Shown here in pieces: positions 2,550 through 20,856 of a DNA stretch of 64,000 nucleotides (positions are counted from its first letter, which is position 1; each line of letters begins with the position of its first letter). The notes under the pieces are model-generated. The model saw only the letters and a list, made by a program, of their open reading frames with translations, made no database searches and was not told where the DNA came from. This DNA is from Rhodospirillaceae bacterium. GTDB lineage: Bacteria > Pseudomonadota > Alphaproteobacteria > TMED109. The position numbers and the translations under genes are program-made. The DNA lies in the NCBI GenBank assembly GCA_902571315.1, contig CACGBM010000002.1, forward strand, positions 1 through 64,000. The letters run 5' to 3'.

Positions 2550-5500
2550 ATGGGAAGTTTATTTGAAATAGCTAAAAGTGGAATACAAGCGTATAGGCAG
2601 GCTTTGTCTGTAACAGGACAAAATATTGCTAACATAAATACAGAAGGCTATTCCAAAAGAGATGTGGCTCTAGAGGAAATAGGTGGTATTCAAGGAGGTG
2701 TAACAGATGTTTCTGATCAAAGTGGTTTAGGAGTAAGAGTAGATGAAATTAGGCGTTCATTTAATGCTTATATTAATGAAAGATTAAGAACTGGTCATTC
2801 TTCTTTTGAGCAAATAAATCAATTTTCTAAAGAGGTTAAATCATTAGAAAATAATCTTCTACCAGAAGGAAGTGATTTAAGCACTTTTATTGGAAAATTT
2901 TTTAGTTCTCTTCAAGAAATAGCTGCTGCTCCTGAAGACTCTGCACCAAGAACTGTTGCAATGGAAGCAGGAAAAGATATGGTTAATTCATTTAATGATT
3001 ATGCGACCAGATTAAAACTGTCTCAAGAAGGGACATTTTCTCAATCCAAATTATCAATAGATAAAATAAATTTATTATCTAATGAGTTGGCAAGCGTAAA
3101 TAATAGGCTAAAAAGTGCAGGTGCTACTAAAACTGCTAATGACCTACTTGATACAAGGGATTTATTATTAGAAAGATTATCAAAAGAAATTGAATTTACA
3201 ACAAGTTATGGTGATAGAGGAGATGTAACTTTAAGATTAGGAAATTCAGGGCAAGGTCCTATTTTGGTATCACCTAGTAAAGCTTTTAATTTGAGAGCTA
3301 AGGTTACTGAGAACTCTGACTTTAGATATGCATTTGAACAAACAGTAAATAATATAAGTATTTTTATAATAGAAGGGACTAATGAAACTTCAACCACACA
3401 GATTACAGGCGGAAAGATAGCAGGTTTAGTAAATTACTATGCCTACGTCCAGGAAGTTAAGTCTGCAGTTGATGATATAGCTTTTAGAGTAGCAAGAGAT
3501 TTTAACGATGTTCAAAAAAATGGAAAGGATATTACTGGAAAGATTGGAAATGATATGTTCTTAGTAGGTCTTCCTAATATTGAAAAAAATCTTCTTAAAG
3601 ATTCGAATTTAGATGTAAGAGTTGATCAATTAGAATCTGTAGTAAGTCTAAAAAATAATATTGATTTAAACTTTGATGGTACAAAATGGAAAGATAATAA
3701 TAATAATATATATTCAGGTAACAACTTTAATGTTAATGGTTTAGCTGTAACATTAAATGGTGAAGCAAAAAAAGGAGATAGTTTTTCTCTTTTAGCAAAT
3801 AATGATTTATCTAGTTCTCTAAAATTTAACTTAAAAAGCGGTAATGAATTTGCTGCTTCTGCGTTCAAATTAGCAGAAAGTAATACAAATAATTTAGGTA
3901 CAGGAGAACTAACAATTGAAGGAAGATATAAAGATCCAACTTTAGACATTTCAAGTGTAGAAGAAATATTTGCAGATACAGATAATACTTTGTTAGCAAC
4001 TAATTTTTTAAAAAATGGAGCTATAGCTTCAATAGGAAGAAATATTAAGGAAATTAATTTAAAATCTTATAGTTTACAACCTCAATTGAGTTATGTTATC
4101 ACAGATGATGAAGCCAAGACCATAAATTCATTAGATTTAGAATTAGCTAACGGGAACACAGTTTCTTTGACATTTAATAGCACTGATCTTGGTCATAAAG
4201 TAAACTCTGTAAGGGATTTAGCAGATATTTTAAATTCAGGAGTTGATCCAGGTGGTAATAGTTTTTCTTTTGCAAGCTATGGTTTAATAGCTTCAGGCGC
4301 TAATGGCGCGTTGACAATTGCTAGTAATGATCAAAATTTTATGTCATCTTCAATAGCTACTAGATCTTCCGGAACTTTAAATGGTATAGTTAAAAATACA
4401 ACTGCAAGTGAATTAAAAGCAACTGATATAAATATTTTTACAAGAGAAGGAAAACATATTGCAGGTACACCTTTAAAGCTTGAAGAATATTCAGCATTAA
4501 TCAATAGCAAAAATGGTTTTTTAAGTAATGCGGTTTATAATGCTGAGTATATAAATCAAGATTATAGAAATGTTCAAATTGAAAGAGGTTCTGTTGAGTC
4601 TGATTATACTTTATTTACAGGACATTCAGCGTCTAGGTCAGCTAATCCTATAACGGCCCAGACTTTAAGTATAGATACTTTTAATGATGGAATAATTGAT
4701 ACGACTTTAACAATACCTATTAGTTCTTCTTCATCATACACACTAAAAGAGTTTAAGGAAAATGCTTCTAAATCAGGAATATTGGCTGAAGCTGTAACTA
4801 GAGTTATGATTGATCCTATAGATGATATAGCGATAAGTGGAACCATGTCGATGACATTATCTTCTGGTTTAAAAGATGGAGTCTCAATATCTGCCACAAT
4901 ACTACCAAATGACTTAACAAATTTAGTTTCTGAAATAAATAAAGTTAGTGAACTTACTGGAGTGAAAGCCATCATATTTTCCGATAAAAAAAGATTAATT
5001 TTAGAAAATTTGGATGCCGATGATATAAAAATTACAAACTTTTCTGCTCCAGGAGCAGGAGAAACAACTGCAAGAGTATTAAATCAAATTTATGGAGATA
5101 CTGGATCTAATATTACTTTGGGCTCTACATCTTCAGATAATTCTGCTGTTTTTACTGGCACAATTAAATTACAATCAGCAGTAGATTTCGCATTGACTAG
5201 CACAGATGGGGGGTCCAATTTAACAGGCACAGCTTCAATCAAAGGTTTTGATAATGGAAGAGGTAAGTTTACATGGTCTGATACTGGTGAGATCCTAACT
5301 ATTGAAAATATTAATTTTGGATCTGCCGATGAGGCAATAGCATCTAACGATGGAACTTATGCATCTAAACCAATAGGTTCATATAATGTTATTTTACCTG
5401 CTGTAGATAATAGTTCATCTTTTAGTTCTACAGTTTTTACAGATAACCTAGATACAAATAGTCCTTATGAAGTTCATAAAGCAATGATTGATGGGTTCAG

Positions 5501-7916
5501 ATCAGAGTCTCCTGATATAAGAGTAGTAGGAGATGTTATAAATACCTTGCCAGCAGACAATACAACTTTAACATTTCAATTTGAAGGAAACACTTATAAG
5601 TTAAAAACTTTAGGCAAAGATGTTATAGTTGAAGGTGGTGAAAAAGATAGAATAAAAGCTTTCTTTACTCCTGTATCTGGATGGAGTGGAGGTACAGCTA
5701 CAGAGGTGACTTCAGAAAATAGTTTAGTAGTTTCTTCTGGTAATACTTTTAATATCTCAGTTGATGGCACTGACTCTGGAACGATTACACTAGCTGCAGC
5801 AACTTATTCCTCTAACACGGCGATAGCATCAGCATTACAAACCGCAATTAATGCTGACTCAGTACTAACTTCTGCGAGCAAATCAGTCAGTGTAAAATGG
5901 ACAGGCCAAAACTATGAATTTGTATCTAATACAGGAAGACAAACTTATGACATTAATGATACTACCTTAGCTAGTGTTAAAGTAACTGCTATTGATACAA
6001 TAATTGAAAATAATTTAAAACTAAGTCAATCTAATGGTGCTACTACATCAATTAATGGTTATCAGTTAGGAATAGTAGGTGAAGGATCAATATCTGCCAG
6101 TCAAATTACATTTCCGGTTAATACTGAAAATACTGTTTCAAAAACTAGTTTAGGACTAAACACTGCTACTAAAAATATTGAAGGTAAGGCTGTCACTAAC
6201 AATCCCACTAATGGAGATTACTTTGATATTAAAGTTAAAGTAGGATCTTTTAAAAGTGGAAATAATATATCTACATTAAGCTCTAGCTCTACTCTTGTAG
6301 TTTCAGGTACTAATACTTTAGTAGTAGCAATAGATGATGTTACTTCTGGCACTATTACAATGCCAGCTGATACTTATGAGTCTAATGGATCTGTTGCTAA
6401 AGAATTAGAAGAAGCAATAAATGCAGACGCAACTCTTATTGCAGCTGGAAAAACAGTAAATGTTCTTTGGGATGGCGAAAATTATCAAATAGTTTCTAAT
6501 ACATCAACAACTGATGCTTCTGTAAATGTTACTTCTATAACAACAGCTCTTGATAGCCATCTTAAATTATCCTCTTCATTAGGTGGTGCTCAATCAGATA
6601 GTGCTAAATACAGAGTAGAATATACAGATGCAGCTTGGTTAGGAGGAACAGCTTCTATTGCAAGCTCTTCTTCTACAGTAACAATTCCAACTAATAGATC
6701 TTTTGACATAACTGTTGACGGAGTATCAACAACAATTTCTTTAACAGCTGGTGCCGCGTACACATCGAATACTAGATTAGCTGAAGCAATTCAGAATACT
6801 ATAAATGGAGATACAACGTTAACAACTGCTGGAAAAAGCGTAGAAGTAAAGTGGAATGGAACAGCATATAAAATTATTTCTAATGGAACTTCTTCAGCAG
6901 ACATTTCAATTACTTCTATGGATAGTGATCTAGATAGTATTTTAAAACTAGGTCCTTCTTCGGGCACAGAGAATGATTATTCTTTTGACATTTACGACGG
7001 CAATGGAACAACTTTGCATAATAGATCAATTACTCTAAATGATGTTAACTTTCAATGGAATTCTACTGATAAGAACTTATCTATATCTAGAAAACTAGAT
7101 ACTTCACCACTTCATGAAGTATCTTTTGTATCAGATGCTACTAATAACGAAAAATTTGGTATTAAATATTATCCTCATAATGTAGTAATGGAAGGTTCCA
7201 ATATTGTTATAACAAGTGGTAATGGTAGTCCAGTCGATGTAACATTTTCTTCCGCACTTGCTGACAATAATTCAACAGTAGGTGAATTTATAACATTAAA
7301 AAATCTTCCTCCTGAGGAACTTATTATAGTGTTAAATGGAGCAGGAACAGCAAGGAGAGTTTCTGCTTCTTATGAGATACAGGAAATTCCTAGTGAAGAA
7401 ATAGGACAGAATTTATTATTTAATATAGATAGCTCTAATGAAAAATTAATTCATATTATAGACGCGGATACAGGGCATGATATAGCGCAGAGAACTTTAA
7501 ATGATACTGGTAGATTCAAAGCAGGAGGATATAGTCTAAAATTATCTGGAACAGCTAGTGTTAAAGACAGTTTTTCAATTACTGATAATTTGGGAGGAGT
7601 AGGAGATGGAAGAAATATTTCTGCAATGTTAGACCTTCAAGAAGATAAATTTGAGTCTGAAGGTAAAGGAAATTTTCAGGATTTATTTGCACAAATAGTA
7701 GCTTCAGTTGGTTCATCTGTTCAAAGTTCAGAATTAAATAAAAACTCTTCAGAGATGATTAGAGACGCTGCTGCCAATGCTGTCTCAGAATTGAGTGGTG
7801 TTAATATGGATGATGAGGCAGCACAGTTAATAGAATATCAACAAGCATATCAAGCATCGGCACGAGTTTTGCAAACAGCAAGAGAGTTATTTGATACCTT
7901 AATTGATAGGATTTAA
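2550..7916 (+). CDS. flgK: Giant hook-filament junction protein FlgK with repeat insertion
   Basis: FlgK (HAP1) joins the hook to the filament. The ends are canonical: N-terminal D0/D1 helix with GIQAYRQALSVTGQNIANINTEGYS, C-terminal DEAAQLIEYQQAYQASARVLQTARELF. At 1788 aa it is about three times the usual 450-700 aa. The extra mass lies in the centre (roughly residues 330-1680) and is Thr/Ser/Asn-rich, probably beta-sandwich domains exposed on the outside. Three related units of about 110 residues (residues ~1044-1159, ~1232-1342, ~1361-1468) share TITLxxxTYxSNTxxAxxLQxAIN and KxVxVxWxGxxYxxxSN. One further stretch (residues ~780-840) resembles a flagellin IN motif. It is read without interruption, so the gene looks functional. 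Confidence 0.93.
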   Translation: MGSLFEIAKSGIQAYRQALSVTGQNIANINTEGYSKRDVALEEIGGIQGGVTDVSDQSGLGVRVDEIRRSFNAYINERLRTGHSSFEQINQFSKEVKSLENNLLPEGSDLSTFIGKFFSSLQEIAAAPEDSAPRTVAMEAGKDMVNSFNDYATRLKLSQEGTFSQSKLSIDKINLLSNELASVNNRLKSAGATKTANDLLDTRDLLLERLSKEIEFTTSYGDRGDVTLRLGNSGQGPILVSPSKAFNLRAKVTENSDFRYAFEQTVNNISIFIIEGTNETSTTQITGGKIAGLVNYYAYVQEVKSAVDDIAFRVARDFNDVQKNGKDITGKIGNDMFLVGLPNIEKNLLKDSNLDVRVDQLESVVSLKNNIDLNFDGTKWKDNNNNIYSGNNFNVNGLAVTLNGEAKKGDSFSLLANNDLSSSLKFNLKSGNEFAASAFKLAESNTNNLGTGELTIEGRYKDPTLDISSVEEIFADTDNTLLATNFLKNGAIASIGRNIKEINLKSYSLQPQLSYVITDDEAKTINSLDLELANGNTVSLTFNSTDLGHKVNSVRDLADILNSGVDPGGNSFSFASYGLIASGANGALTIASNDQNFMSSSIATRSSGTLNGIVKNTTASELKATDINIFTREGKHIAGTPLKLEEYSALINSKNGFLSNAVYNAEYINQDYRNVQIERGSVESDYTLFTGHSASRSANPITAQTLSIDTFNDGIIDTTLTIPISSSSSYTLKEFKENASKSGILAEAVTRVMIDPIDDIAISGTMSMTLSSGLKDGVSISATILPNDLTNLVSEINKVSELTGVKAIIFSDKKRLILENLDADDIKITNFSAPGAGETTARVLNQIYGDTGSNITLGSTSSDNSAVFTGTIKLQSAVDFALTSTDGGSNLTGTASIKGFDNGRGKFTWSDTGEILTIENINFGSADEAIASNDGTYASKPIGSYNVILPAVDNSSSFSSTVFTDNLDTNSPYEVHKAMIDGFRSESPDIRVVGDVINTLPADNTTLTFQFEGNTYKLKTLGKDVIVEGGEKDRIKAFFTPVSGWSGGTATEVTSENSLVVSSGNTFNISVDGTDSGTITLAAATYSSNTAIASALQTAINADSVLTSASKSVSVKWTGQNYEFVSNTGRQTYDINDTTLASVKVTAIDTIIENNLKLSQSNGATTSINGYQLGIVGEGSISASQITFPVNTENTVSKTSLGLNTATKNIEGKAVTNNPTNGDYFDIKVKVGSFKSGNNISTLSSSSTLVVSGTNTLVVAIDDVTSGTITMPADTYESNGSVAKELEEAINADATLIAAGKTVNVLWDGENYQIVSNTSTTDASVNVTSITTALDSHLKLSSSLGGAQSDSAKYRVEYTDAAWLGGTASIASSSSTVTIPTNRSFDITVDGVSTTISLTAGAAYTSNTRLAEAIQNTINGDTTLTTAGKSVEVKWNGTAYKIISNGTSSADISITSMDSDLDSILKLGPSSGTENDYSFDIYDGNGTTLHNRSITLNDVNFQWNSTDKNLSISRKLDTSPLHEVSFVSDATNNEKFGIKYYPHNVVMEGSNIVITSGNGSPVDVTFSSALADNNSTVGEFITLKNLPPEELIIVLNGAGTARRVSASYEIQEIPSEEIGQNLLFNIDSSNEKLIHIIDADTGHDIAQRTLNDTGRFKAGGYSLKLSGTASVKDSFSITDNLGGVGDGRNISAMLDLQEDKFESEGKGNFQDLFAQIVASVGSSVQSSELNKNSSEMIRDAAANAVSELSGVNMDDEAAQLIEYQQAYQASARVLQTARELFDTLIDRI
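5679..6953 (+). repeat. Three protein-level tandem repeats inside flgK
   Basis: Units lie at about 5679-6027, 6243-6575 and 6630-6953. Each encodes a Ser/Thr-rich lead, a short (S/T)VDG-type strand, a TI(T/S)L strand, AIN helix with a following DxxLTxAxKSV, a WxGxxYxxxSN strand and a terminal LKLS/LKLG. Similarity is clear in protein but eroded in DNA, so the duplication is old and kept by selection rather than recent. Confidence 0.8.
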
Positions 7917-9746: not shown

Positions 9747-10670
9747 CTACTTATATAAACTTCTTATTCTAGTTGTAAACTGGTCTAAAGTAGGATTGTT
9801 TTCAAATTTCACTTCTTGAATTAAAAGTGAGATTCCGTCCCATATAGATATAGAGGGTTTCCAATTACTTTGACTATATATTTTATCAATATTTAAATTG
9901 AAAACCTTTTTAATTGATGAACTACTTTCATCAAAAATAAATTTTTTATTTAGCCTTTCATAAATCATTTTAAGTACCGACTTTATTTCTACTCCTTGTC
10001 CAAAACTTAAGTTATAAACTCCTTCTAAATCATTGCTAATCAAAGAAACAATACCTCGTGCTATATCTGATGTGTTAATATAATCTTTTACATCATAAAT
10101 ATTTTTCAATACTATTAGTTCATCTTTATAAATACGTTGAATTACGTCATTAAAAAAAAAATTACTATCTTTTTTATTAGAATAGGGTACTCCTAGTCTT
10201 AAATGAATATGTTTAATATCTAAGCTAGTACAAATTTCTTTAGTTAACATATAAAATGCTTGTTTCGATCGGGCAAAACTATTCTTTGGAATACAAATAG
10301 TATTTTCAGATAAGTTTTTCTCAAGAATACCATATTCTTCATAAGTTCCTAATGTAATAAATCCTTTGCAATTTATATTTTTTGCTAATTCTAATATTTT
10401 AATTAAATTTTTTGTATCCGTTATCTGATTGTTAGCATAGGCACAATGCACTATGTACTCTGGTTTACTCATGCTTAATTTTCTAATTACTATTGGATCT
10501 AAATAGTTATCTGTTTGAATAATATTATAACACTTAATACTTTTGAGATAATCAATATTAGATTTTTCTCTTACTAATGCAGTTATAGGAATATTACTAG
10601 CCATTAACTCACTAATAATATTAGAGCCAATGAAACCGTTAGCACCAGTAATCAGAATTCTATTTTGCAT
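9747..10670 (-). CDS. NAD-dependent epimerase/dehydratase family protein
   Basis: An extended SDR protein of the nucleotide-sugar epimerase/dehydratase type. The N-terminal Rossmann motif is GANGFIGSN (about residues 8-16), and a Thr/Glu active-site-like region TLGTYEEYG follows at about residue 115. The catalytic YxxxK that normally sits about here reads FARSK, so the usual general-base Tyr is Phe. The start at 10670 is preferred; an upstream ATG at 10679 nearly touches the promoter-like GTCGTT. It likely makes or modifies a sugar nucleotide, perhaps for flagellin glycosylation, given that its promoter motif is shared with flagellin genes. Substrate unknown. Confidence 0.8.
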   Translation of the reverse strand: MQNRILITGANGFIGSNIISELMASNIPITALVREKSNIDYLKSIKCYNIIQTDNYLDPIVIRKLSMSKPEYIVHCAYANNQITDTKNLIKILELAKNINCKGFITLGTYEEYGILEKNLSENTICIPKNSFARSKQAFYMLTKEICTSLDIKHIHLRLGVPYSNKKDSNFFFNDVIQRIYKDELIVLKNIYDVKDYINTSDIARGIVSLISNDLEGVYNLSFGQGVEIKSVLKMIYERLNKKFIFDESSSSIKKVFNLNIDKIYSQSNWKPSISIWDGISLLIQEVKFENNPTLDQFTTRIRSLYK

Positions 10671-10679
10671 ATTAAGCAT

Positions 10680-10705
10680 AACGACAATAATACCGAAATT
10701 TTAAA
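10680..10705 (-). promoter_or_regulatory. Sigma-28-like promoter for the epimerase gene
   Basis: On the minus strand TTTAAA (10705-10700) is followed after 14 nt by GTCGTT (10685-10680). The same pair with the same spacing precedes two flagellar genes here. If GTCGTT is the -10 element, transcription would start only a few bases before the ATG at 10670, giving a nearly leaderless message. Confidence 0.5.
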
Positions 10706-10714
10706 TATGTTAAA

Positions 10715-10726
10715 CACATTTATGTG
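10715..10726. promoter_or_regulatory. Palindrome between two divergent promoters
   Basis: CACAT-TT-ATGTG is a perfect inverted repeat lying between the -35-like boxes of the divergent epimerase and flagellin promoters. It could be an operator acting on both; no protein is known to bind it. Confidence 0.35.
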
Positions 10727-10727
10727 A

Positions 10728-10753
10728 CTAATAAATCAATAAACTTTGTCGTT
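10728..10753 (+). promoter_or_regulatory. Sigma-28-like promoter for short flagellin
   Basis: CTAAT (10728-10732), 15 nt, GTCGTT (10748-10753), 27 bp before the ATG at 10781. It matches the motif found upstream of 12511 and 17631 and resembles the FliA pattern TAAA-N15-GCCGATAA. No clear Shine-Dalgarno lies between it and the gene. Confidence 0.5.
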
Positions 10754-10780
10754 ATAAATATATAAAAATAATATGTAAAT

Positions 10781-11548
10781 ATGTCAGAGCGTTCATCTTT
10801 ATCAATTTTAGCTAATTTAGGTTCAAAATTAGCTATACCTAAAATTCAAGAATCTTTAAAAAATATAATTACAGGTAAAGAAGGTACCGGTATTATGAAA
10901 GCTCTTTCAACTACACTATACGCTAAATCAGATAGTTGGGGTGCAGCAGCTGGAAATATAAGAAAAGCTATAGAAGCCTTAGAAACTGCTGAAAAAGCTC
11001 TACTTGAGATTGCTACATTAGCCACAAGGTTAGAAGAACTAGGGGCGCTTTATAATGATAATGATATTTTATCTACATCAGATGTAGCAGCACTTGATGC
11101 AGAAACTGAAACTATTACAGCTGCTATAGATAGTATAGTTTCAGGAGCAACATTCAATGGAGTTTCTATGCTTGATGCTGCTGGCGTTACATTTGATGCT
11201 GGAGTTACTGATGCAGGTGATACTCAAACCTTAACAACTGAAGCAATAAGTTCAGTAGCATCTACAACAACAGCTTCCGATGCAGATACTACTGGAGCTT
11301 CATTAAATAATGAAGTTACTATAAGTCTTGGAGAAATTTCAGGAGGAATTACTACTCTTTTGGCAAGAGAAAATATTGCTTATGCAGCATCAGCAATAAT
11401 GAGCGCTGCCGCTGATAGTGCCGTAGAAACTGACTTAGCTGCAGAAGCTGCACAATTAACTAAACAAATGATGTTGCAAAAAGTTTCTCTTTCATTGGCT
11501 GCTCAAGCAAATCTTAATGAAAACGCAAAATTAAATTTAGTATCTTAA
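10781..11548 (+). CDS. Divergent short flagellin-like protein
   Basis: A 255-residue protein that aligns with the other small flagellins here in its middle and end: ALLEIATLATRLEELGALYNDNDILSTSD, FNGVSML, and a C-terminal helix with AEAAQLTKQMMLQKVSLSLAAQAN. The N-terminus is unusual: the normal flagellin start with LSSGKR and GDDAAG is replaced by a different Lys/Gly-rich stretch (KNIITGKEGTGIMK). It is probably a minor filament subunit or a filament-associated protein secreted by the flagellar export gate. Its 3' end overlaps the convergent gph by 4 bp. It lies apart from the other three flagellin genes. Confidence 0.75.
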   Translation: MSERSSLSILANLGSKLAIPKIQESLKNIITGKEGTGIMKALSTTLYAKSDSWGAAAGNIRKAIEALETAEKALLEIATLATRLEELGALYNDNDILSTSDVAALDAETETITAAIDSIVSGATFNGVSMLDAAGVTFDAGVTDAGDTQTLTTEAISSVASTTTASDADTTGASLNNEVTISLGEISGGITTLLARENIAYAASAIMSAAADSAVETDLAAEAAQLTKQMMLQKVSLSLAAQANLNENAKLNLVS

Positions 11549-12219
11549 AATTTAAAGTTAGAAATTATTTGAGGTATTTTTTTTAAATCCTCAAGTATGA
11601 TATCAGCGTTCATATCATTAATATTTTCATAACTGTACCCATGTTTTAGCAAAATTAACTTAGATCCACTCCTTTTAGCACAAAGGGCATCATTAATACT
11701 ATCGCCTATAAAAATACAATTATAATCTTTTATATTGGTTAATTTGATAGTTTCGTATAAATGTATTGGGCTTGGTTTTCTGTAATCAAATGTGTCTCCT
11801 CCTGAAATAGCAGAAAAAAATTTTTCTAATTTAAAGTGATTAAGTATTTTTTTAACAAAAAATTCTGGTTTATTTGAAACTATAATAAGTTCATAGTTTT
11901 CTGATTTTAATTTTTCTAATACTGTAGTTGTATATGGAAATAATTTAGACTTATTCAGACAGTTTTGCTCATAAATTTTTAGGAATTTTTCTTTAAGTGG
12001 TTTCCAGCTTATATCTTTATGGTTAATTCCATTTATTTTAAAAGCTTTTTTAATCATTGATAAAGCTCCATTACCTACTAAGTCATTTACATCAGATCTT
12101 TGCATGCAAGGAATATTATTCTCTTTTAGCAAAATATTTAGCGTATCAATTAAGTCATCAGCACTGTCTAATAAAGTACCATCTAAATCAAAAGCTAATA
12201 TAGTTTTATAATTGTTCAT
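11545..12219 (-). CDS. gph: Phosphoglycolate phosphatase-like HAD hydrolase
   Basis: A HAD-IA hydrolase with nucleophile motif FDLDGTLLDS (about residues 10-19), motif II VSN, a Lys-containing RKPSP motif and motif III GDSINDALCAKRSG. The helical cap with GNGALSM is that of Gph, which dephosphorylates 2-phosphoglycolate. Length 224 aa is typical. It reads against the flagellin on its left and away from the flagellin at 12511; no link with the flagellum is evident. Confidence 0.8.
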   Translation of the reverse strand: MNNYKTILAFDLDGTLLDSADDLIDTLNILLKENNIPCMQRSDVNDLVGNGALSMIKKAFKINGINHKDISWKPLKEKFLKIYEQNCLNKSKLFPYTTTVLEKLKSENYELIIVSNKPEFFVKKILNHFKLEKFFSAISGGDTFDYRKPSPIHLYETIKLTNIKDYNCIFIGDSINDALCAKRSGSKLILLKHGYSYENINDMNADIILEDLKKIPQIISNFKF

Positions 12220-12438
12220 TTTATTTATTACTAAAAAATAATTTCTTTTATTTTCATAGTAAAGCCTTTTAAGATATTTCCATAAATTAAATCAGTGTTC
12301 TGATATAATACTCAGTCTTTATTTAATAAAAATTTAAAACTTTCAAATATAATTAATTAAACTTCTAAACACTTTGATGTGTAAATTTTGAAAAAAACTT
12401 AACATTCTTTTAGAAAACATATGAAAAGTAAATTAGTA

Positions 12439-12463
12439 CTAAACATTTTTTAATTATGTCGTT
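12439..12463 (+). promoter_or_regulatory. Sigma-28-like promoter for flagellin pair
   Basis: CTAAA (12439-12443), 14 nt, GTCGTT (12458-12463), 47 bp before the flagellin ATG at 12511. The leader contains a Shine-Dalgarno AAAGGAAA just before the start. No GG-N10-GC sigma-54 pattern was seen between 12220 and 12510; the rest of this 291-bp AT-rich gap holds nothing else I recognise. Confidence 0.55.
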
Positions 12464-12510
12464 TTAAATTTTGAAAAGATTATTTAAATAGAAATCTGAA
12501 AGGAAACTAA

Positions 12511-13305
12511 ATGTCATCTGTCTCAAGTTTAAGTAACGGCGCTTTATTCGCAGCAAATAATGCTGCTAAAGCACAAAGAGGAATCACACAATCTATAGCA
12601 AAATTATCTTCAGGTAAAAGATCTATAAATGGCAGTGATCCTTCAGGACAGGCGGTAGCGGATTCTTTAAATGCAAACTCTAGAAGCTGGTATGTAGCTG
12701 CTAGAAATGCTGAAGATGGCATTTCAGCTGCACAGGTAGCAGAGTCTTCTTTAATGGAAATAGCTGGATTAGCTCAAAGATTGAGGGAATTAGGTGTTAA
12801 ATTCGAAAATTCAGATATTTTATCAGACTCTGATACATCAGCATTGAATGCAGAAGCAGCAGCTATTTATGATACTATAGATGCAATCATAGAAACTACT
12901 AAGTTTAATGGTGTAGATCTTCTTAGTCATTCAGTAAAGTCATATCAAGTGGCTGTAGCTGATGACGGCGGATATATTCAGTTTCAATCTAGTAGTGGGT
13001 TTACCTCAGTTTCAGATAAGAATACAGTAGCAGATGCAATAGCAGATGCTGATACAATTCTATCTGAAGTTGCAACTAACTTAGGTCATACTTCTGCAGG
13101 AATGGCTGCATTTAAAGCTAGGCAAGCAGTAGCATACTCTGCATCTGCAAACTTGGCTGCTGCAGCATCTAGAATTGAAGATACTGATTATGCCGAAGAG
13201 TCTGCTAATCTAGCAAGATTATCTATTTTAAATCAATCTTCAATGTCTATGGTAGCACAAGCAAACAAAGCTAATGCTACTTTTTTAACTATTATTAACC
13301 AATAA
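12511..13305 (+). CDS. Flagellin, short type A
   Basis: A 264-residue flagellin. The N-terminal D0/D1 part has AKLSSGKRSINGSDPSGQAVAD and RNAEDGISAAQVAESSLMEIA; the C-terminal part has DYAEESANLARLSILNQSSMSMVAQANKAN, the interface that packs the filament core. The central outer domains are nearly absent, so the filament surface it makes would be thin. It is 19 bp upstream of a second flagellin of exactly the same length, and both differ clearly in sequence, so the duplication is old. Export is expected with a FliS chaperone binding its C-terminal helix. Confidence 0.9.
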   Translation: MSSVSSLSNGALFAANNAAKAQRGITQSIAKLSSGKRSINGSDPSGQAVADSLNANSRSWYVAARNAEDGISAAQVAESSLMEIAGLAQRLRELGVKFENSDILSDSDTSALNAEAAAIYDTIDAIIETTKFNGVDLLSHSVKSYQVAVADDGGYIQFQSSSGFTSVSDKNTVADAIADADTILSEVATNLGHTSAGMAAFKARQAVAYSASANLAAAASRIEDTDYAEESANLARLSILNQSSMSMVAQANKANATFLTIINQ

Positions 13306-13323
13306 CTATAAAGGAAAATTAAT

Positions 13324-14118
13324 ATGACAAGTGTTTCAAACGTCTCTATAGGAGCAAATATGGCAGGAGCGGCTGCTGCTAAAGCCAGACATGGAATGAA
13401 CGAAGCTATCGCTCGTTTATCTACTGGCAGAAGATCAATGTATGGAGGTGATGCTGCTGGTCAATCAACAGCATTTCAGCTAAAAGCTAGAGGTATGTCA
13501 TACGCTCAAGCAGGAAGAAATACAGAGGATGGTATTTCAGTTGCTCAAACTATTGAATCTGCATTAATGGAAATTGCGTCTTTAGGACAACGTTTAAGAG
13601 AACTTGGTGTACAAGCTGAGAACTCTGCTATTCACAGTACTGATGATGTATCTGCAAGTACTGCAGAAGTAACTGCTATTACTGCAACTATTGATGCAAT
13701 CGTAACTCAGACTCTATTTAATGGCGTAGCATTGATGTCCGCTGGTGGATCTGAACAAATTGCTATTGGTACAACTGATACAACTGCTAATGACTTTACA
13801 GTAACGTCTACTGCGATTTCTGCTGCTTCTGGTACAACCACTGCTGGAGCTGCTATAGCTACAGCAAATACATTATTAGGTGAAGTAGGTGTATCATTAG
13901 GAAACATGGCTGCTGCGCAGTCAGCTTTAAAAGCAAGGCAAGGGGTTGCATATGCTACATCAGCTAACCTTTTAGCAGCTGCTTCTAGATTGGAAGAAAC
14001 TGATTTTGCTAGCTCATCTGCAAATTTAGCCAAATTTGCTATATTAAATCAATCAGCAATGGCTATGGTAGCTCAGGCTAACCAAGCGCAAAGTGCAGTT
14101 TTAGCTGTTATAAATTAA
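13324..14118 (+). CDS. Flagellin, short type B
   Basis: A 264-residue flagellin, paralogue of the gene just upstream and probably cotranscribed with it; AAAGGAAAA provides the ribosome site. It carries ARLSTGRRSMYGGDAAGQSTAF and RNTEDGISVAQTIESALMEIASLG in the N-terminal core and FASSSANLAKFAILNQSAMAMVAQANQAQ at the end. The middle is short and Thr/Ala-rich. Its core residues are closer to the long flagellin at 14332 in the C-terminal helix than to the divergent one at 10781. Confidence 0.9.
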   Translation: MTSVSNVSIGANMAGAAAAKARHGMNEAIARLSTGRRSMYGGDAAGQSTAFQLKARGMSYAQAGRNTEDGISVAQTIESALMEIASLGQRLRELGVQAENSAIHSTDDVSASTAEVTAITATIDAIVTQTLFNGVALMSAGGSEQIAIGTTDTTANDFTVTSTAISAASGTTTAGAAIATANTLLGEVGVSLGNMAAAQSALKARQGVAYATSANLLAAASRLEETDFASSSANLAKFAILNQSAMAMVAQANQAQSAVLAVIN

Positions 14119-14131
14119 ATTTAGCTTTTAT

Positions 14132-14176
14132 TATCTACGTAGATTATGTTTTTTTAAAAACAAATCTACGTAGATA
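14132..14176. promoter_or_regulatory. Paired identical palindromes upstream of sigma-54 promoters
   Basis: ATCTACGTAGAT occurs at 14133-14144 and again at 14164-14175, 31 bp centre to centre (about three helical turns). Each copy is a self-palindrome, and together they also form a 14-bp stem. Lying 50-160 bp upstream of two sigma-54 promoters, they fit binding sites for an enhancer-binding activator. A terminator for the flagellin to the left is the alternative, but no T-run follows the second arm. Confidence 0.6.
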
Positions 14177-14225
14177 GTTTATTTAGTATATTATATTTTA
14201 AAAGCCACTACCTGTGGTAAAGTAA

Positions 14226-14242
14226 CTGGCATTATATTTGCA
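14226..14242 (+). promoter_or_regulatory. Upstream sigma-54 promoter of the long flagellin
   Basis: CTGGCATTATATTTGCA: GG at 14228-14229 and GC at 14240-14241 with exactly 10 nt between, close to the consensus TGGCAC-N5-TTGC. The predicted start point leaves a leader of about 80 nt before 14332. Confidence 0.65.
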
Positions 14243-14288
14243 CACATTTATATTATGATTATAAATACTAAATTTAAGTGTTTGGCAG

Positions 14289-14305
14289 TTGGCACGATAA
14301 TTGCT
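14289..14305 (+). promoter_or_regulatory. Sigma-54 promoter of the long flagellin
   Basis: TTGGCACGATAATTGCT matches the RpoN consensus at every conserved base; GG (14291-14292) and GC (14303-14304) are 10 nt apart. The expected start point near 14316 leaves a 16-nt leader containing AGGAGG (14321-14326), ideally placed for the ATG at 14332. Confidence 0.9.
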
Positions 14306-14331
14306 ATTAGGGACTTATTAAGGAGGTTTAA

Positions 14332-15921
14332 ATGCCAGTACAAAATCCAGGTGTAACATCGTTATTTGCACTACATAATTTGCACAAAACAGAAAGAGCT
14401 ATGGGGGTTTCTATAGAGAGGCTTTCATCTGGTAAAAGAATAAACCATGCGGGAGATGATGCTGCTGGTGGTGCAATAGCAGATAGAATGACAGCACAAA
14501 TAAAAGGATTAAATATGTCTGTTAGAAATGCATCAGATGTATTGTCAATGGCACAAGTTGCGGAAGGTGCACTTGATGAGTCTTCTAAGGTACTACAAAG
14601 AATTAGAGAATTAGCAATTCAGTCTGCAAGTGACTTGATGAATGGAGAAGAAAGACTTTATCTTCAAACTGAAGCTAATCAATTAATTGCAGAATTAGAT
14701 AGAGTTGCAAGGGATACAACTTTTAATGAAATAGCTGTTTTAGATGGAACTTTCGCGGATAGAAGATTTCAAATAGGTTCCAAAGAAAGAGAAGCAGCAA
14801 CTGTTTCTATAGGAAATTTAAGAACTGAAAAAATAGGAAATCATACAGTAAGAACCAGCGCAACTGCAGGTGAAACAAATTTGGCTACTGCTGCAGTTAG
14901 AGGAACAGATGATCAAGTAGCTGATGAAGATTTTACTATACATGGATTATTAGGATCTAAAACAATTGATGTAGTTGCAAATGCTAGTGCCAAAGATATT
15001 GCAGAAGCAGTAAATATAGCATTTGATAGTACAGGAGTAAGTGCAACTGCTTCAACAAATTTAAAAATTCAAGGTGTAGCTGATACAGCTGGTTCTGCAA
15101 CTTTATCAATAGGTATACAGGGAAAAAATTCTACAGCAAGAACTATTTCTGCCGGAGTCACTTTAGGTGATGCAGTAGGTGGTTCTGATTTGACTAACTT
15201 AAGCAACTCTATTAATGCATATTCTGCTGAAACAGGAGTAGTGGCAGTTTTAAGTGCGGACAAAGCAACTGTGTATTTAACACAAGATGAGGGACATGAC
15301 ATTATCTTAACTGATCTAGATTGGGCAGACGTGGGGGATGCTGATACTCATTCACTTCAAGTAACTGGTATGGACTCAAGAATATTTGATACTGATGGTA
15401 CAACAGAGCTTTTATCAGGTTCAGCAGTTAGTGTTTATGATCAGGAATATGATGCTGGTGATACTGAAACAGCTGGTTTTGCAGATTCAGTGATTGTATC
15501 AGGGCAAATTAATATGCACGCTTCACATTCATTTACAGTAACAACGGATTATGGCGACGGTGATGATGGTTTATTTGAGTCTTCTCCAGGAGTAGCTACT
15601 CTTAATAAGGTTTCAGAGTTAAGTCTAAGAAGTAGATCTAAAGCTATTGATGCTTTAAAAATGGTTGATAAGGCACTTGATAAAATTCATATGGAAAGAG
15701 CTAAATTAGGTGCTGTTATGAGTAGAATGGATCAGGCAATTGACAATTTAACTAATGTATCAGCTAACACATCTTCTGCAAGGTCTAGAATTGTAGATGC
15801 AGATATGGCAGCTGAAGCAGGTAATTTAACTAAGACTCAAATTCTTCAACAAAGTGCAATGGCTATGATTGCTCAGGCTTCAAAAGCCCAGCAGGCTGTT
15901 CTAACTTTATTACAAGGATAA
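14332..15921 (+). CDS. Flagellin, long type (529 aa)
   Basis: The most canonical flagellin of the window. The N-terminal core shows IERLSSGKRINHAGDDAAG, followed by RNASDVLSMAQVAEGALDE and IRELAIQSASDLMN; the C-terminal core shows RSRIVDADMAAEAGNLTKTQ and QQSAMAMIAQASKAQQAVL. Between them lie about 250 residues of variable outer domain, including an IN-type module (residues ~283-335). It has its own sigma-54 promoters, unlike the shorter flagellins, and is followed after 16 bp by fliD. It is probably a main filament subunit. Confidence 0.95.
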   Translation: MPVQNPGVTSLFALHNLHKTERAMGVSIERLSSGKRINHAGDDAAGGAIADRMTAQIKGLNMSVRNASDVLSMAQVAEGALDESSKVLQRIRELAIQSASDLMNGEERLYLQTEANQLIAELDRVARDTTFNEIAVLDGTFADRRFQIGSKEREAATVSIGNLRTEKIGNHTVRTSATAGETNLATAAVRGTDDQVADEDFTIHGLLGSKTIDVVANASAKDIAEAVNIAFDSTGVSATASTNLKIQGVADTAGSATLSIGIQGKNSTARTISAGVTLGDAVGGSDLTNLSNSINAYSAETGVVAVLSADKATVYLTQDEGHDIILTDLDWADVGDADTHSLQVTGMDSRIFDTDGTTELLSGSAVSVYDQEYDAGDTETAGFADSVIVSGQINMHASHSFTVTTDYGDGDDGLFESSPGVATLNKVSELSLRSRSKAIDALKMVDKALDKIHMERAKLGAVMSRMDQAIDNLTNVSANTSSARSRIVDADMAAEAGNLTKTQILQQSAMAMIAQASKAQQAVLTLLQG

Positions 15922-15937
15922 AATTAGTGTGAATTAA

Positions 15938-17575
15938 ATGGCTAGTACGCCAGATATATTATCAAAATTAAACGTTGGATCAGGAATGAATAATTCCGAG
16001 ATCATAACTGCATTAGTAGATGCAGAAAGAATTCCAAAGCAAGAAAGAATTGATACAGATAAAATAAACACTGAAAATACAATTTCAGCTTATGGAGTAC
16101 TTAAAAGTGATATAAGTGGTTTTAGAGATATTGTTAGGTCTATTCAAAGCAGTGATGCATCTGGTTTTATTGGTTCTTCAAGTAATACCACTGTGGCAAG
16201 TTTTTCAACTACTGGGAATACAGGAACTGCAGCGATAAATTCTTCATTAACTATTGATACCTTAGCAAAAACGCATACATTGGTTTCTGGAACATATTCA
16301 AACACTGGCGCAACTGTAGGGGCAGGCTCTTTCACTATTGATTTTGGGACCTGGAGTACTACTAGTTCCTCTAACGATACATTTACTGCTAACAGTAATT
16401 CCTCGGTTACCATTAATACTTCTTCTACCACTTCTTTAATACAATTAAGAGATGCCATAAATAACGCTACTGATAATGCTGAGGCTGTAGTTATGAATAA
16501 CGGATCAGGTTTCATTATTGTCTTAAAAGGATTGAGCGGAGCAGAAAACGAATTAAGGATAACGCCTGGGGCTGGTTCATCATCTGACCTATCAAATAAT
16601 TTTGCTTACACAACAACTACTAAAAATTTAACTCAGACTGTTGATGGGGAAGATGCTTCCTTTACTGTTGATGGCATATCAATGACTAGATCTAGTAATA
16701 CTATTACTAATTTATATAACGGCTACACACTTGAGTTAGAAAGCACAACTTCTTCAGCTATAAGTATCAGTAGTTCTCAGGATATGAGCACAATAGAAGG
16801 TTTACTATCAGATTTTGTTGATGCCTATAATAGCGTTTATTTAGGAATAACCGATCTGACAACAGTTCCGCTATCCTCTGATTCGTCCGCAGGTCCTTTA
16901 TCTGGTGACTCATTAGCTAGGACTATACAGAGAGAATTAAGAAGTTTTACAACAAAGTCTGTTGAAGGATATGAAGATGGTCCTTACTCTTTATCTTTAT
17001 TAGGAGTAAGTACTAATAGGGACGGAAGTATTAGTTTAAATCCTAACACTCTTAGAAACACTTTTGAGTCTAATCCAACTATTGTTGATGCCATTTTTAA
17101 AAATCAACTAACATCAGATAATTCAGAAGTAGAAGTTACAGCTATAGGAAGAGATACTAATCCAGGCTCTTATGCTTTAACTAAGTCTGGATCTGATTAT
17201 TTACTTGATGGAGTTACTTTGACTGCAAGTGGAACCTCTTATTCTTCTTCATCTGGTGATACAAATGGTATTGTATTGAAAATACCTAACACAGATATTT
17301 CTTCTGCTAATATTTATTATGGTAAATCTCTAATGTCATTAGTTGATACTAGCCTTACTAACTTTTTATCATTTAAGGGTGACATAAATAATAGGCTTAA
17401 TAACTTAAATGACAGATTATCTGGTTTTAGGGATCAGCAAGAAGCACTAGACGAAAGAATGAATACTCTTACAGATAGGTTTACTTCACAATTTATGGCA
17501 ATGGAACAATCTATTGCAGGTCTTAAAGAAACTGGAAATTATTTAGATCAAATGTTAAAACAAGATTCAGATTAA
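15938..17575 (+). CDS. fliD: Filament cap protein FliD
   Basis: FliD (HAP2) forms the cap at which flagellin is added. N-terminal part: LNVGSGMNNSEIITALVDAERIPKQER, typical of FliD; C-terminal part: LNNLNDRLSGFRDQQEALDERMNTL then RFTSQFMAMEQSIAGL, the conserved coiled-coil terminal region. Length, 545 aa, is usual. The centre has Thr/Ser-rich strands like the flagellin IN motif. It lies in the run flagellin-fliD, and fliS follows after its own promoter. Confidence 0.93.
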   Translation: MASTPDILSKLNVGSGMNNSEIITALVDAERIPKQERIDTDKINTENTISAYGVLKSDISGFRDIVRSIQSSDASGFIGSSSNTTVASFSTTGNTGTAAINSSLTIDTLAKTHTLVSGTYSNTGATVGAGSFTIDFGTWSTTSSSNDTFTANSNSSVTINTSSTTSLIQLRDAINNATDNAEAVVMNNGSGFIIVLKGLSGAENELRITPGAGSSSDLSNNFAYTTTTKNLTQTVDGEDASFTVDGISMTRSSNTITNLYNGYTLELESTTSSAISISSSQDMSTIEGLLSDFVDAYNSVYLGITDLTTVPLSSDSSAGPLSGDSLARTIQRELRSFTTKSVEGYEDGPYSLSLLGVSTNRDGSISLNPNTLRNTFESNPTIVDAIFKNQLTSDNSEVEVTAIGRDTNPGSYALTKSGSDYLLDGVTLTASGTSYSSSSGDTNGIVLKIPNTDISSANIYYGKSLMSLVDTSLTNFLSFKGDINNRLNNLNDRLSGFRDQQEALDERMNTLTDRFTSQFMAMEQSIAGLKETGNYLDQMLKQDSD

Positions 17576-17581
17576 AATAAA

Positions 17582-17606
17582 CTAAATAAATTTTAGAAAT
17601 GTCGTT
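17582..17606 (+). promoter_or_regulatory. Sigma-28-like promoter for fliS
   Basis: CTAAA (17582-17586), 14 nt, GTCGTT (17601-17606). The fliS ATG is at 17631 with AAGGAG at about 17618-17623, so a start point near 17614 fits a short leader that still contains the ribosome site; this supports GTCGTT being the -10 and not the -35 element. Confidence 0.55.
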
Positions 17607-17630: not shown

Positions 17631-18014
17631 ATGAATAGTAAGTTATCTAAATACCAAAAAAGTAATATTGTACAGAAAATGAATACAGACGATAAATACG
17701 ATATTATAAACGAGTTACTTTCCGCGCTTAATAAAAATTTAAAAGCAACCTTAATTAATTTAGATAAACAAAAAACCGAAAAAGCAAAAGATACAGCAAA
17801 AAAAGCTCAAAATATTGCACTTGCTTTACAGAATTGTCTAGATGTAAAAAATGGAGGCGAAATAGCACAGAATTTAAATTATTGTTATAGACATATTAGG
17901 TTCGCAACCCAAAATTATTTAGAAAAAGATAAGTCAAACTTACTTACAAGCGCTCATTTCGTATCCGGTGAATTGCTTAGTGGCTGGAAGGGCATGAATA
18001 CTTCTGTTGCTTAA
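17631..18014 (+). CDS. fliS: Flagellin export chaperone FliS
   Basis: A 127-residue helical protein with the FliS core: helices around DIINELLSALNKNLKATL, then IALALQNCLDVKNGGEIAQNLNYCY and IRFATQNYLEKD. FliS binds the C-terminal helix of flagellin in the cytoplasm and keeps it from polymerising before export. It follows fliD, as in many bacteria, but has its own promoter motif. A second, more diverged FliS is encoded at 20437, which may divide the several flagellins between two chaperones. Confidence 0.85.
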   Translation: MNSKLSKYQKSNIVQKMNTDDKYDIINELLSALNKNLKATLINLDKQKTEKAKDTAKKAQNIALALQNCLDVKNGGEIAQNLNYCYRHIRFATQNYLEKDKSNLLTSAHFVSGELLSGWKGMNTSVA

Positions 18015-18033: not shown

Positions 18034-19746
18034 TTGTGTTATTCTCCTGCTAGGGAGAATAAAATATTTAAAGCTAGTAATTATAAATTTTTACTACCAC
18101 TAGTTCTAGCAGTTCTAATAGGAATAATAGTTTCTTTTGCTGTTCAAGGTTTTATATCATTAGTAAATTTAGTTGAGTCTTATTTACGAGGAGATGAACA
18201 TCTATTACTAGGACTTCCTAAAGAATTTCTTGTTATTAGCGGACCTATAATTGCTGGTATAATAGTTTCAATTATTTTTAAATTAGCAAATTTAGATAGA
18301 TGGCATGGTCCAGCAGACAGTATCCTAGCCGCTCATCTTCCCTCGCATAGACCCAATACAGAAGCCGGTTTATTATCAACTTTAGCCTCTGCTATCTCTA
18401 TTTCTGGAGGAGCATCAGTTGGACAATATGGACCCCTAGTTCATTTTGGCGGTGTTATAGGAGATTACTTTTCTAAACTTACTAGAGATCAAACCTCACC
18501 TCACATTTTATTGGCCTGTGGAGCAGCAGCAGCAGTGTCTTCCGGGTTTGGAGCTCCATTCGCAGGGTTAGTATTTGCGCATGAAGTTATAGTAAGACAT
18601 TTTTCTTTAAAGGCAGTGGCTCCTATTTTGATAAGTTCTGTAGTTGCACATACTTTTAGCAGAGAGGTGTACTTATATGAACCACTTTTCCAAATCTCAA
18701 TAGGAGGTATATCAAATTTTTATGAAATTTTCCCACTTGCATTATTAGGAATATTAGCAGGATTTATAGCTTCTCTTTACATGAGAGGCCTAACAGGAAA
18801 GCTTCCAATCCCAAAACAAATTCCTACCTATTTGTTGCCAATAATAGCTGGAATTATATGTGGTATAACTGGATTATTCTTACCTGAAACTTTAGGGCTA
18901 GGAACGAATTTTATCAGAAATATAATTGAAGACCCAATGAGTATTGATTATGTATTTTTACTTTTATTGGGTAAATTATTTCTGACAGTAGTATGTATTA
19001 GACTCTTTTTATTTGGTGGTATTTTTTCTCCTGCATTATTTATAGGAGTATCATTAGGGTGTATTTTTGTAGCTTTTTTTAATCAAATTATTCCTGACTT
19101 AAATTATTCATTATTTGTTATAGCTGGTATGGCTGCAGTTACATCTTGTGTAATAGGTGGTCCTATATCAACTTTATTAATAGTTTTTGAATTAACTTCT
19201 GATTACCAAGTTGCTCTTGGAGCTGGGATAAGCGTATGTTTTTCTAATCTAATTTCGTCAAAAATTTATGGACACTCTGCGTTTGATCAAATGTTACTTA
19301 ATAGAAATATAGATTTACGATTAGGAAGAGATAATCTTCATTTAAAGTCAATTTCTATTAATTCTATTTATAGTAAAAATTATATTAGGTTAGCTCCTGA
19401 GCATAAAGTAGAAGATATGATAAAAATATTGTCGGAATCAGAAAACAGTGACGGTTATATAATAAGCCCTAAAGGTGTTTTGTTAGGAAAAGTATTTCTA
19501 CCAAAACTAATACAAATAGAAAATAAATCTTTACCGCCTGATAAAAATTTATTTACAGGTTTTTTAAGTTTGAATGAAAATCAAAATATATTAGAGGCTA
19601 TAGATCTTATTAAGGACTTTGTAGGTGAGTCAGTTCCTGTTGTTGATAACAATAATAATATACTTGGCATTGTTACTGAAAGTGATTTATTTAATCAATT
19701 GCTTATTGCAGAAAACATAAGAAAAAAAGAGGAATTATCAGACTAA
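18034..19746 (+). CDS. ClC-family chloride channel/transporter with CBS region
   Basis: A ClC protein of about 570 aa: roughly ten hydrophobic segments over residues 12-420, then a soluble tail with two CBS-like stretches (about 440-565; EVDLFNQL-like end ESDLFNQLL). Signature segments are SISGGASVGQYGP and FLFGGIFSPALFIGVSLG. The gating Glu of ClC exchangers (GREGP in E. coli) is Tyr here (GQYGP). The start is uncertain: the only usual start codon is TTG at 18034 without a ribosome site, whereas AGGGAG at 18052-18057 stands 6 nt before an in-frame ATA at 18064. It sits inside the flagellar cluster with no obvious flagellar role. Confidence 0.85.
   Translation: MCYSPARENKIFKASNYKFLLPLVLAVLIGIIVSFAVQGFISLVNLVESYLRGDEHLLLGLPKEFLVISGPIIAGIIVSIIFKLANLDRWHGPADSILAAHLPSHRPNTEAGLLSTLASAISISGGASVGQYGPLVHFGGVIGDYFSKLTRDQTSPHILLACGAAAAVSSGFGAPFAGLVFAHEVIVRHFSLKAVAPILISSVVAHTFSREVYLYEPLFQISIGGISNFYEIFPLALLGILAGFIASLYMRGLTGKLPIPKQIPTYLLPIIAGIICGITGLFLPETLGLGTNFIRNIIEDPMSIDYVFLLLLGKLFLTVVCIRLFLFGGIFSPALFIGVSLGCIFVAFFNQIIPDLNYSLFVIAGMAAVTSCVIGGPISTLLIVFELTSDYQVALGAGISVCFSNLISSKIYGHSAFDQMLLNRNIDLRLGRDNLHLKSISINSIYSKNYIRLAPEHKVEDMIKILSESENSDGYIISPKGVLLGKVFLPKLIQIENKSLPPDKNLFTGFLSLNENQNILEAIDLIKDFVGESVPVVDNNNNILGIVTESDLFNQLLIAENIRKKEELSD
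18041..18060 (+). promoter_or_regulatory. Hairpin masking a ribosome site
   Basis: ATTCTCC-TGCTAG-GGAGAAT forms a perfect 7-bp stem. The right arm overlaps the only Shine-Dalgarno-like AGGGAG before the ClC gene, so folding would hide it. There is no T-run downstream, so it is not a usual terminator. Confidence 0.4.
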
Positions 19747-20436: not shown

Positions 20437-20856
20437 ATGTATATAAATAAATCAAAAAATTTACAAAGCTATAAAACATCAGAAGAGTCCTCTTATGCAG
20501 TTAAGGATAAACCTGCTGTGGTGTCTGCTATTTTAATGGAATTAAAGAGATCAATGAACATAGTAGCAGATAAAATAGAGAGTACTAAAGATTGGAAACC
20601 ATCAGAAGACGATATTAAGTTAAAAAATAAACATTTTACAAAAGCTTTAACAGCAATTTATTCATTACAAGTATCATTAAATTTTGATGATGGTAGCAGT
20701 AATATTGCAATTAAACTTTTTCAATTGTATGAATATTGCAGACAACAATTAATTAAAGGTTTTTCTAAAAAAGTCGTTGATGGTATTAAGAAAGGTGCTG
20801 AAGCTATTGAAAGTATATGTGAGGCTTGGCAAAAGGGAGTAGCAAATGCAAAATAA
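20437..20856 (+). CDS. Second FliS-like flagellin chaperone
   Basis: A 139-residue helical protein with FliS features: LMELKRSMNIVADKIES, then AIYSLQVSLNFDDGSSNIAIKLFQLYEYCRQQL, where LxxxLNFDxGxxxAxxLxxLYxYC matches the FliS core helix. It is diverged from the FliS at 17631. The next gene (FliT-like) overlaps it by 11 bp, as fliT commonly follows fliS. It may serve one of the flagellin types or the giant FlgK. Confidence 0.75.
   Translation: MYINKSKNLQSYKTSEESSYAVKDKPAVVSAILMELKRSMNIVADKIESTKDWKPSEDDIKLKNKHFTKALTAIYSLQVSLNFDDGSSNIAIKLFQLYEYCRQQLIKGFSKKVVDGIKKGAEAIESICEAWQKGVANAK

Follow-up and report, generated by a model that had tools for sequence, protein, structure and literature searches.

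The 64,000-nt stretch of Rhodospirillaceae bacterium DNA analysed here (assembly GCA_902571315.1, contig CACGBM010000002.1, positions 1–64,000; hereafter, the window) encodes the flagellar proteins FlgH, FlgI, FlgJ, FlgK and FlgL, identified by eye from their translations, together with four flagellins, FliD and two FliS-like proteins. A first-pass annotation had reported four copies of a shared motif in this region, TAAA followed after 14 or 15 bases (N14/15) by GTCGTT, and had read them as promoters of the sigma-28 (FliA) type that define a late-flagellar regulon with its own consensus and tie an epimerase gene to filament biogenesis. All four copies were located at the genes to which they had been assigned, and the GTCGTT sites most likely constitute a real promoter class, an altered version of the known sigma-28 type. 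The sites and the genes concerned are as follows (ORF, open reading frame).

10680–10703, minus strand: predicted sigma-28-type promoter of the epimerase gene, TAAA (10703–10700), N14, GTCGTT (10685–10680); pattern scan; kept in L017, G003, G004, G006 and G019
10729–10753, plus strand: predicted sigma-28-type promoter of the short flagellin, TAAT-N15-GTCGTT; relaxed scan
12440–12463, plus strand: predicted sigma-28-type promoter of the flagellin pair, TAAA-N14-GTCGTT; pattern scan
17583–17606, plus strand: predicted sigma-28-type promoter of fliS, TAAA-N14-GTCGTT; pattern scan
9747–10670, minus strand: NAD-dependent epimerase/dehydratase gene (PF01370); likely start ATG 10670–10668, which is M4 of the listed ORF 9747–10679
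10781–11548, plus strand: short divergent flagellin (PF00669, N-terminal part)
12511–13305, plus strand: flagellin, first of the pair (flagellin models)
13324–14118, plus strand: flagellin, second of the pair, 18 nt behind the first; own site absent
15938–17575, plus strand: fliD, without a GTCGTT site here; own site in several relatives
17631–18014, plus strand: fliS (PF02561)

The upstream (−35) box is an exact TAAA at three of the four sites and TAAT at the other, and the spacing of 14 or 15 agrees with the roughly 15 bases that follow TAAA in sigma-28 promoters. The pattern TAAA-N13-16-GTCGTT has four matches in the window, against a mean of 0.30 in shuffled sequence, and none of 100 shuffles reached four; these matches include an intragenic site at 20754–20778 and exclude the TAAT site at 10729. 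A relaxed scan of intergenic DNA (TA[AT][ATG], at most one change in GTCGTT) returned six sites, namely the four above plus two weak matches that no ORF follows. Here 'intergenic' denotes DNA outside ORFs of at least 90 amino acids, which makes up 5.1% of the window. The canonical pattern TAAA-N12-16-GCCGATA had no match in the window.

Conservation of the sites in related loci

The closest relatives of the flagellins belong to uncultured marine-type Alphaproteobacteria, including Rhodospirillaceae AG-896-G13 (91% identity), Pelagibacterales SP81, Rickettsiales and HIMB59-MED-G10. We assembled 22 relative loci (359,699 bases, 6.4% of them intergenic) by flagellin similarity, with no use of the motif in the choice; the near-duplicates L031 (of L030) and L038 (of L036) were removed before counting, and L040–L054, from other lineages, were left out of the statistics. 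TAAA-N14/15-GTCGTT occurs 61 times in these loci, 55 times in intergenic DNA, and 21 of the 22 loci have an intergenic match. The 59 other orderings of the six letters of GTCGTT, used as a control, gave on average 2.8 matches, 0.27 of them intergenic, with a maximum of five intergenic matches for TGTCGT, a one-base shift of GTCGTT itself. All 36 matches at spacing 14 are intergenic, 28 of them with a C before TAAA, as are 19 of 25 at spacing 15 and none of three at spacing 16; spacing 13, which a site at C2:80649 has, gave no match in the relative loci. The E. coli box GCCGAT likewise had none in all 359,699 bases.

Genes behind the intergenic sites were sought as ORFs of at least 50 amino acids within 140 nt. 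For 53 of the 55 sites, the ORF encodes a flagellin, a FliS-type protein, FliD or the epimerase, in 51 cases by BLAST to the window proteins, with fliS assignments that are partly weak (identity down to 22%). The two remaining assignments, both fliS-type (L036 and L037), were made by resemblance, and the homologue of the L036 protein in G266 is FliS by PF02561. Two sites had no such ORF within that distance. The promoter of the short flagellin recurs as TAAT-N15-GTCGTT in L017 and as TAAA-N14-GTCGTT in G004 and G006.

A sigma-28 factor in the source genome and its relatives

A sigma-28 gene, for which the first-pass annotation had proposed a search, is present in the source assembly (1.03 Mb in 71 contigs, 54% complete). 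It encodes a FliA of 235 amino acids (L016, 1456–2163) that scores 200.6 bits against TIGR02479 (FliA_WhiG; cut-off 189.6) and matches PF04542 and PF04545 (regions 2 and 4); the region-3 Pfam model PF04539 gave no match to this protein. The gene order is flhA-flhF-flhG-fliA, in which flhF is weakly supported and flhA and flhG were named by eye. FliA is found over cut-off in seven of 28 genomes of the same order, and a sample of 289 genomes across the class has 11 with FliA at E ≤ 1e-40. A strict form of the motif, CTAAA-N13-15-TGTCGTT, occurs in six of the seven genomes of the order with FliA over cut-off versus three of the 21 without it; of those three, two are incomplete assemblies from the same genus, with the match before a flagellin.

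Further genes behind the motif

To define the wider regulon, we collected motif contexts from nine FliA-bearing genomes of the same order and of family f9. By our own reading, the 41 intergenic contexts comprise fliS (9), a small protein (7), flagellin (5), epimerase (4), flgM (3), fliD (1) and other or unclear cases (12); two more sites were scored inside spurious ORFs but lie before flgM in L193 and before the small-protein gene in L187. The motif stands before flgM, the anti-FliA gene, in G003, G004, G006 and G019. Their FlgM proteins were recognized by PF04316 (G006), by TIGR03824 over cut-off (G019 and G003) and by near-identity to the G006 protein (G004). Feedback of this kind, with a FliA-type site in front of the gene for the anti-FliA factor, is known from other bacteria, and its presence here is strong evidence that the sigma factor has been correctly identified.

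The small protein, of 58–66 amino acids, lies behind the motif in nine FliA-bearing genomes, the source genome included (contig C33; L247, 912–1106). Alignment of eight sequences has five invariant columns. Among 385 genomes of the class it was found in five, of which four are strong matches, all in FliA-bearing genomes, and one is weak. It has no NCBIfam family match, and a Pfam match fell below cut-off and was taken as chance. The next gene after it is PopZ/DUF2497-like in the source genome, G003 and G007; the G003 copy scores over the PF10691 cut-off and below that of PopZ_fam. The distance from the box to its ATG is 9 nt in eight of nine genomes and 8 nt in the other, with no Shine–Dalgarno-like motif.

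Three family f9 genomes (L201, L210 and L219) also have a secreted-looking protein of at most 158 amino acids with an FGSEGAAGI motif behind the site; the L201 copy had no NCBIfam match. L182, L183 and L213, also of f9, share a short stretch after the motif that begins ATGCAAGCTTGC, even though different genes lie behind it.

The epimerase site

The epimerase site was found in six genomes (the window, L017, G003, G004, G006 and G019), and in the window, L017, G004 and G006 the epimerase and short flagellin genes point away from each other, each strand carrying a GTCGTT. Five genomes have 9 nt between the box and the conserved ATG (M4), and G004 has 10 nt; an earlier ATG, at a distance of 0, 3 or 4 (GTG in L017), is less constant in position. 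The part tested between box and ATG holds no Shine–Dalgarno-like motif. Transcripts usually start at a distance from the −10 box that corresponds here to about 9–11 nt after GTCGTT, and an epimerase transcript starting there would have no leader. The epimerase mRNA is therefore probably leaderless, and spacing of the same kind suggests as much for the mRNA of the small protein.

The epimerase site might instead be incidental to the divergent flagellin promoter region, without driving the epimerase gene, given that a short intergenic region common to both genes in at least four genomes would keep its local sequence conserved anyway. We consider this unlikely: each gene has a separate, oriented site, the spacers have diverged while the box is kept, and the distance to the conserved ATG is nearly constant. 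Moreover, in G003 the epimerase relative and its site are on contig C34 and the flagellin and fliS sites on C40, a separation qualified by another flagellin-domain match on C34, about 2.4 kb away. The first-pass link between the epimerase and the flagellar filament stands at the promoter level, with the site present in the six genomes. One further genome, G168, has the strict site before a gene for a 427-amino-acid sugar-nucleotide aminotransferase (RfbH/PseC-like, below cut-offs); together with the epimerase, this gives a hint of glycan modification of the filament or cell surface.

A third flagellin of the predicted sigma-54 class

The remaining flagellin gene of the window, here called the third, falls outside the GTCGTT class and is listed with its predicted promoter.

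14332–15921, plus strand: third flagellin, 529 amino acids, predicted sigma-54 class
14290–14305, plus strand: predicted sigma-54-type promoter of the third flagellin, TGGCACG-N4-TTGCT; conserved in relatives

Sigma-54 flagellin promoters have the consensus TGGCAC-N5-TTGC, which the 14290 site matches, and this is a different class from the four GTCGTT sites. In close relatives of the third flagellin a TGGCAY-N5-TTGC-like site lies 25–46 nt before the start, L031 being without a match, and no GTCGTT site precedes the gene in the window or in those relatives. RpoN is present in eight of ten FliA-bearing genomes, including two of the same genus.

Proposed promoter recognition and regulon

We read the four sites as late flagellar promoters that the organism's own FliA would bind and read, GTCGTT taking the position that GCCGAT has in E. 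coli, and put the probability of this reading at about 0.9. The −35 element would be TAAA, mostly with a preceding C, the −10 element GTCGTT, and 14 or 15 bases would separate them. By analogy with the known FliA/FlgM pathway, from which the timing is taken, completion of the hook would lead to export of FlgM and so free FliA, which would then switch on the flagellins, fliS, flgM itself, the epimerase/dehydratase and the small protein, while the long third flagellin would be produced under sigma-54. The late-flagellar regulon proposed at first pass is supported: the genome encodes FliA, and the sites are placed non-randomly, before late flagellar genes or the epimerase. The 'own consensus' needs restating: the GTCGTT box is real, but it is common to FliA-bearing marine Alphaproteobacteria and not special to this genome.

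Several observations weigh against this reading. In the source assembly the N13-16 pattern has 14 matches versus 41 for the reversed pattern, and nine of the 14 lie inside ORFs; summed over the nine genomes, the counts are 83 and 260, and 41 of 82 distinct contexts fall inside ORFs. Of the intergenic contexts in the same genomes, 12 of 41 precede genes without a known flagellar link, or no ORF. Neither flgM, sought in the window and three further stretches of the source genome, nor rpoN, sought in the source assembly, was found, in an assembly that is 54% complete. Finally, GTCGTT departs from the E. coli −10 consensus at two of six positions. Raw genome-wide enrichment was accordingly rejected as evidence, the motif being rarer than its reverse, and a lone match elsewhere in a genome counts for nothing, because half of the nine-genome contexts lie inside ORFs and the counts stay below those of the reversed pattern. 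The signal lies in position and conservation. Of the matters raised for the motif scan at first pass, positions in the relative loci are non-random, and raw counts taken alone lend the claim no support.

An alternative is that the sites bind some unknown regulator and that the true promoters are nearby sigma-70 promoters. The promoter role of the GTCGTT sites is itself a prediction, and in intergenic DNA as AT-rich as this, sigma-70-like boxes are to be expected by chance. Two boxes at a fixed spacing of 14 or 15, a TAAA −35, a single orientation and proximity to the start codon are nevertheless what a promoter looks like, and FliA co-occurs with the motif; we regard the regulator as very improbable. 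Marginally weaker still is an extracytoplasmic function (ECF)-type sigma factor such as EcfG, the general stress sigma factor of Alphaproteobacteria (−35 GGAAC, N16/17, −10 CGTT), for although GTCGTT ends in CGTT and TAAA-N16/17-CGTT resembles the EcfG spacing, TAAA or TAAT stands in place of GGAAC at all four sites, C commonly precedes TAAA at spacing 14, altering the leading GT removes nearly all intergenic matches (one for ATCGTT and five for GACGTT, versus 55) and the targets are late flagellar genes, flgM among them.

Recognition of the sites by FliA would have practical consequences. A search of these loci with the sigma-28 box of E. coli yields no match and would overlook the late flagellar regulon of the uncultured marine bacteria concerned; with the correct box, the regulon could be read from single-cell genome fragments, and new late genes, such as those encoding the epimerase and the small protein, come into view. 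Natural covariation of sigma factor and promoter would also provide material for testing how sigma-28 reads the −10 element.

Comparison with other FliA proteins and boxes

The consensus of enterobacterial FliA promoters is given in PMC2859248 as TAAAGTTT-n11-GCCGATAA. The sites described here share with such promoters the TAAA −35, the G.CG.T of the −10, a spacing of 15 (14 or 15 here) and late flagellar targets together with flgM. They differ in having GTCGTT as the −10 at all four sites in place of the E. coli GCCGATAA, and, the E. coli box being absent, we class them as a variant that would act like a sigma-28 promoter. In the literature searched, including excerpts of PMC2859248 and PMC7277832, the GTCGTT promoter class did not turn up, a result that does not establish that the class is unpublished.

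FliA itself differs as well. The source protein has NSNLCRTT where E. coli FliA has RDWVPRSV (residues 86–93); the DWVPRS stretch lies in what we take to be the part of FliA that reads the extended −10. NSNLCRTT is found in the seven FliA proteins of the order, in three f9 proteins, in f19 and in f109 (SSNLCRTT in L097), with D81, R84 and R91 retained; f104 FliA has SHLSRQT and f13 FliA other residues at this stretch. GTCGTT precedes flagellins in f19 and f104 and a flagellin-like ORF in the f109 genome G135. Two genomes weaken the idea that the box strictly covaries with NSNLCRTT: G130 (SHLSRQT), which has GTCGTT before a flagellin, and G238 (f109, NSNLCRTT), which has TAAT and the box GTCGTA. 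As G130 shows, a GTCGTT box can occur without the exact NSNLCRTT block.

The FliA proteins of f13 and Qipengyuania citrea are likewise without DWVPRS, and both have boxes behind TAAA or TAAG in the neighbourhood of flagellin or flgM (by eye). Those of f13 are GCCGCT, GTCGCT and GCCGTT (read by eye), and Q. citrea has GCCGTT before flgM; they differ from the sites described here in having C at box position 2 or 5 in some cases and in lying in GC-richer DNA. The Octadecabacter arcticus plasmid pOA238_118 encodes a related FliA, with no annotated flagellin in the stretches examined. The Pontibacillus stretch examined held no flagellin and the Cupriavidus stretch carries no annotation, so that neither supplied a flagellin upstream region for comparison. 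Across this small sample, with phylogeny not controlled, the change of box position 5 from A to T or C coincides with loss of DWVPRS. We put it at somewhat short of an even chance that alphaproteobacterial FliA changed its promoter code, with loss of DWVPRS accompanying replacement of GCCGAT by G[CT]CG[TC]T as the −10 (GTCGTT in AT-rich marine lines), and that the same regulon includes leaderless late genes, for the epimerase and the 58–66-amino-acid protein, each with an ATG about 9 nt past the box, so that their translation would bypass the Shine–Dalgarno route.

Other features of the window

The intragenic match noted above lies within the second fliS-like gene.

20754–20778, plus strand: candidate intragenic site TAAA-N15-GTCGTT, about 100 nt before the stop of the second fliS-like gene and upstream of a 100-amino-acid ORF at 20846

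This site is kept in L017, L019, L020, G004, G006, G007 and G168, and some homologues of the gene are without it. Its Val codon is GTC, a rare choice: across six genes of the window, 11 of the 254 Val codons are GTC. It is a possible intragenic promoter; alternatively, shared coding sequence would explain its conservation.

The FlgK-like hook protein at 2550–7916 has 1788 amino acids, several times the usual size of FlgK. A chloride-channel-type gene (18034–19746, named by eye) adjoins the filament cap and fliS genes, as it does on the flagellar plasmid of O. arcticus (L255, 13650–15392).

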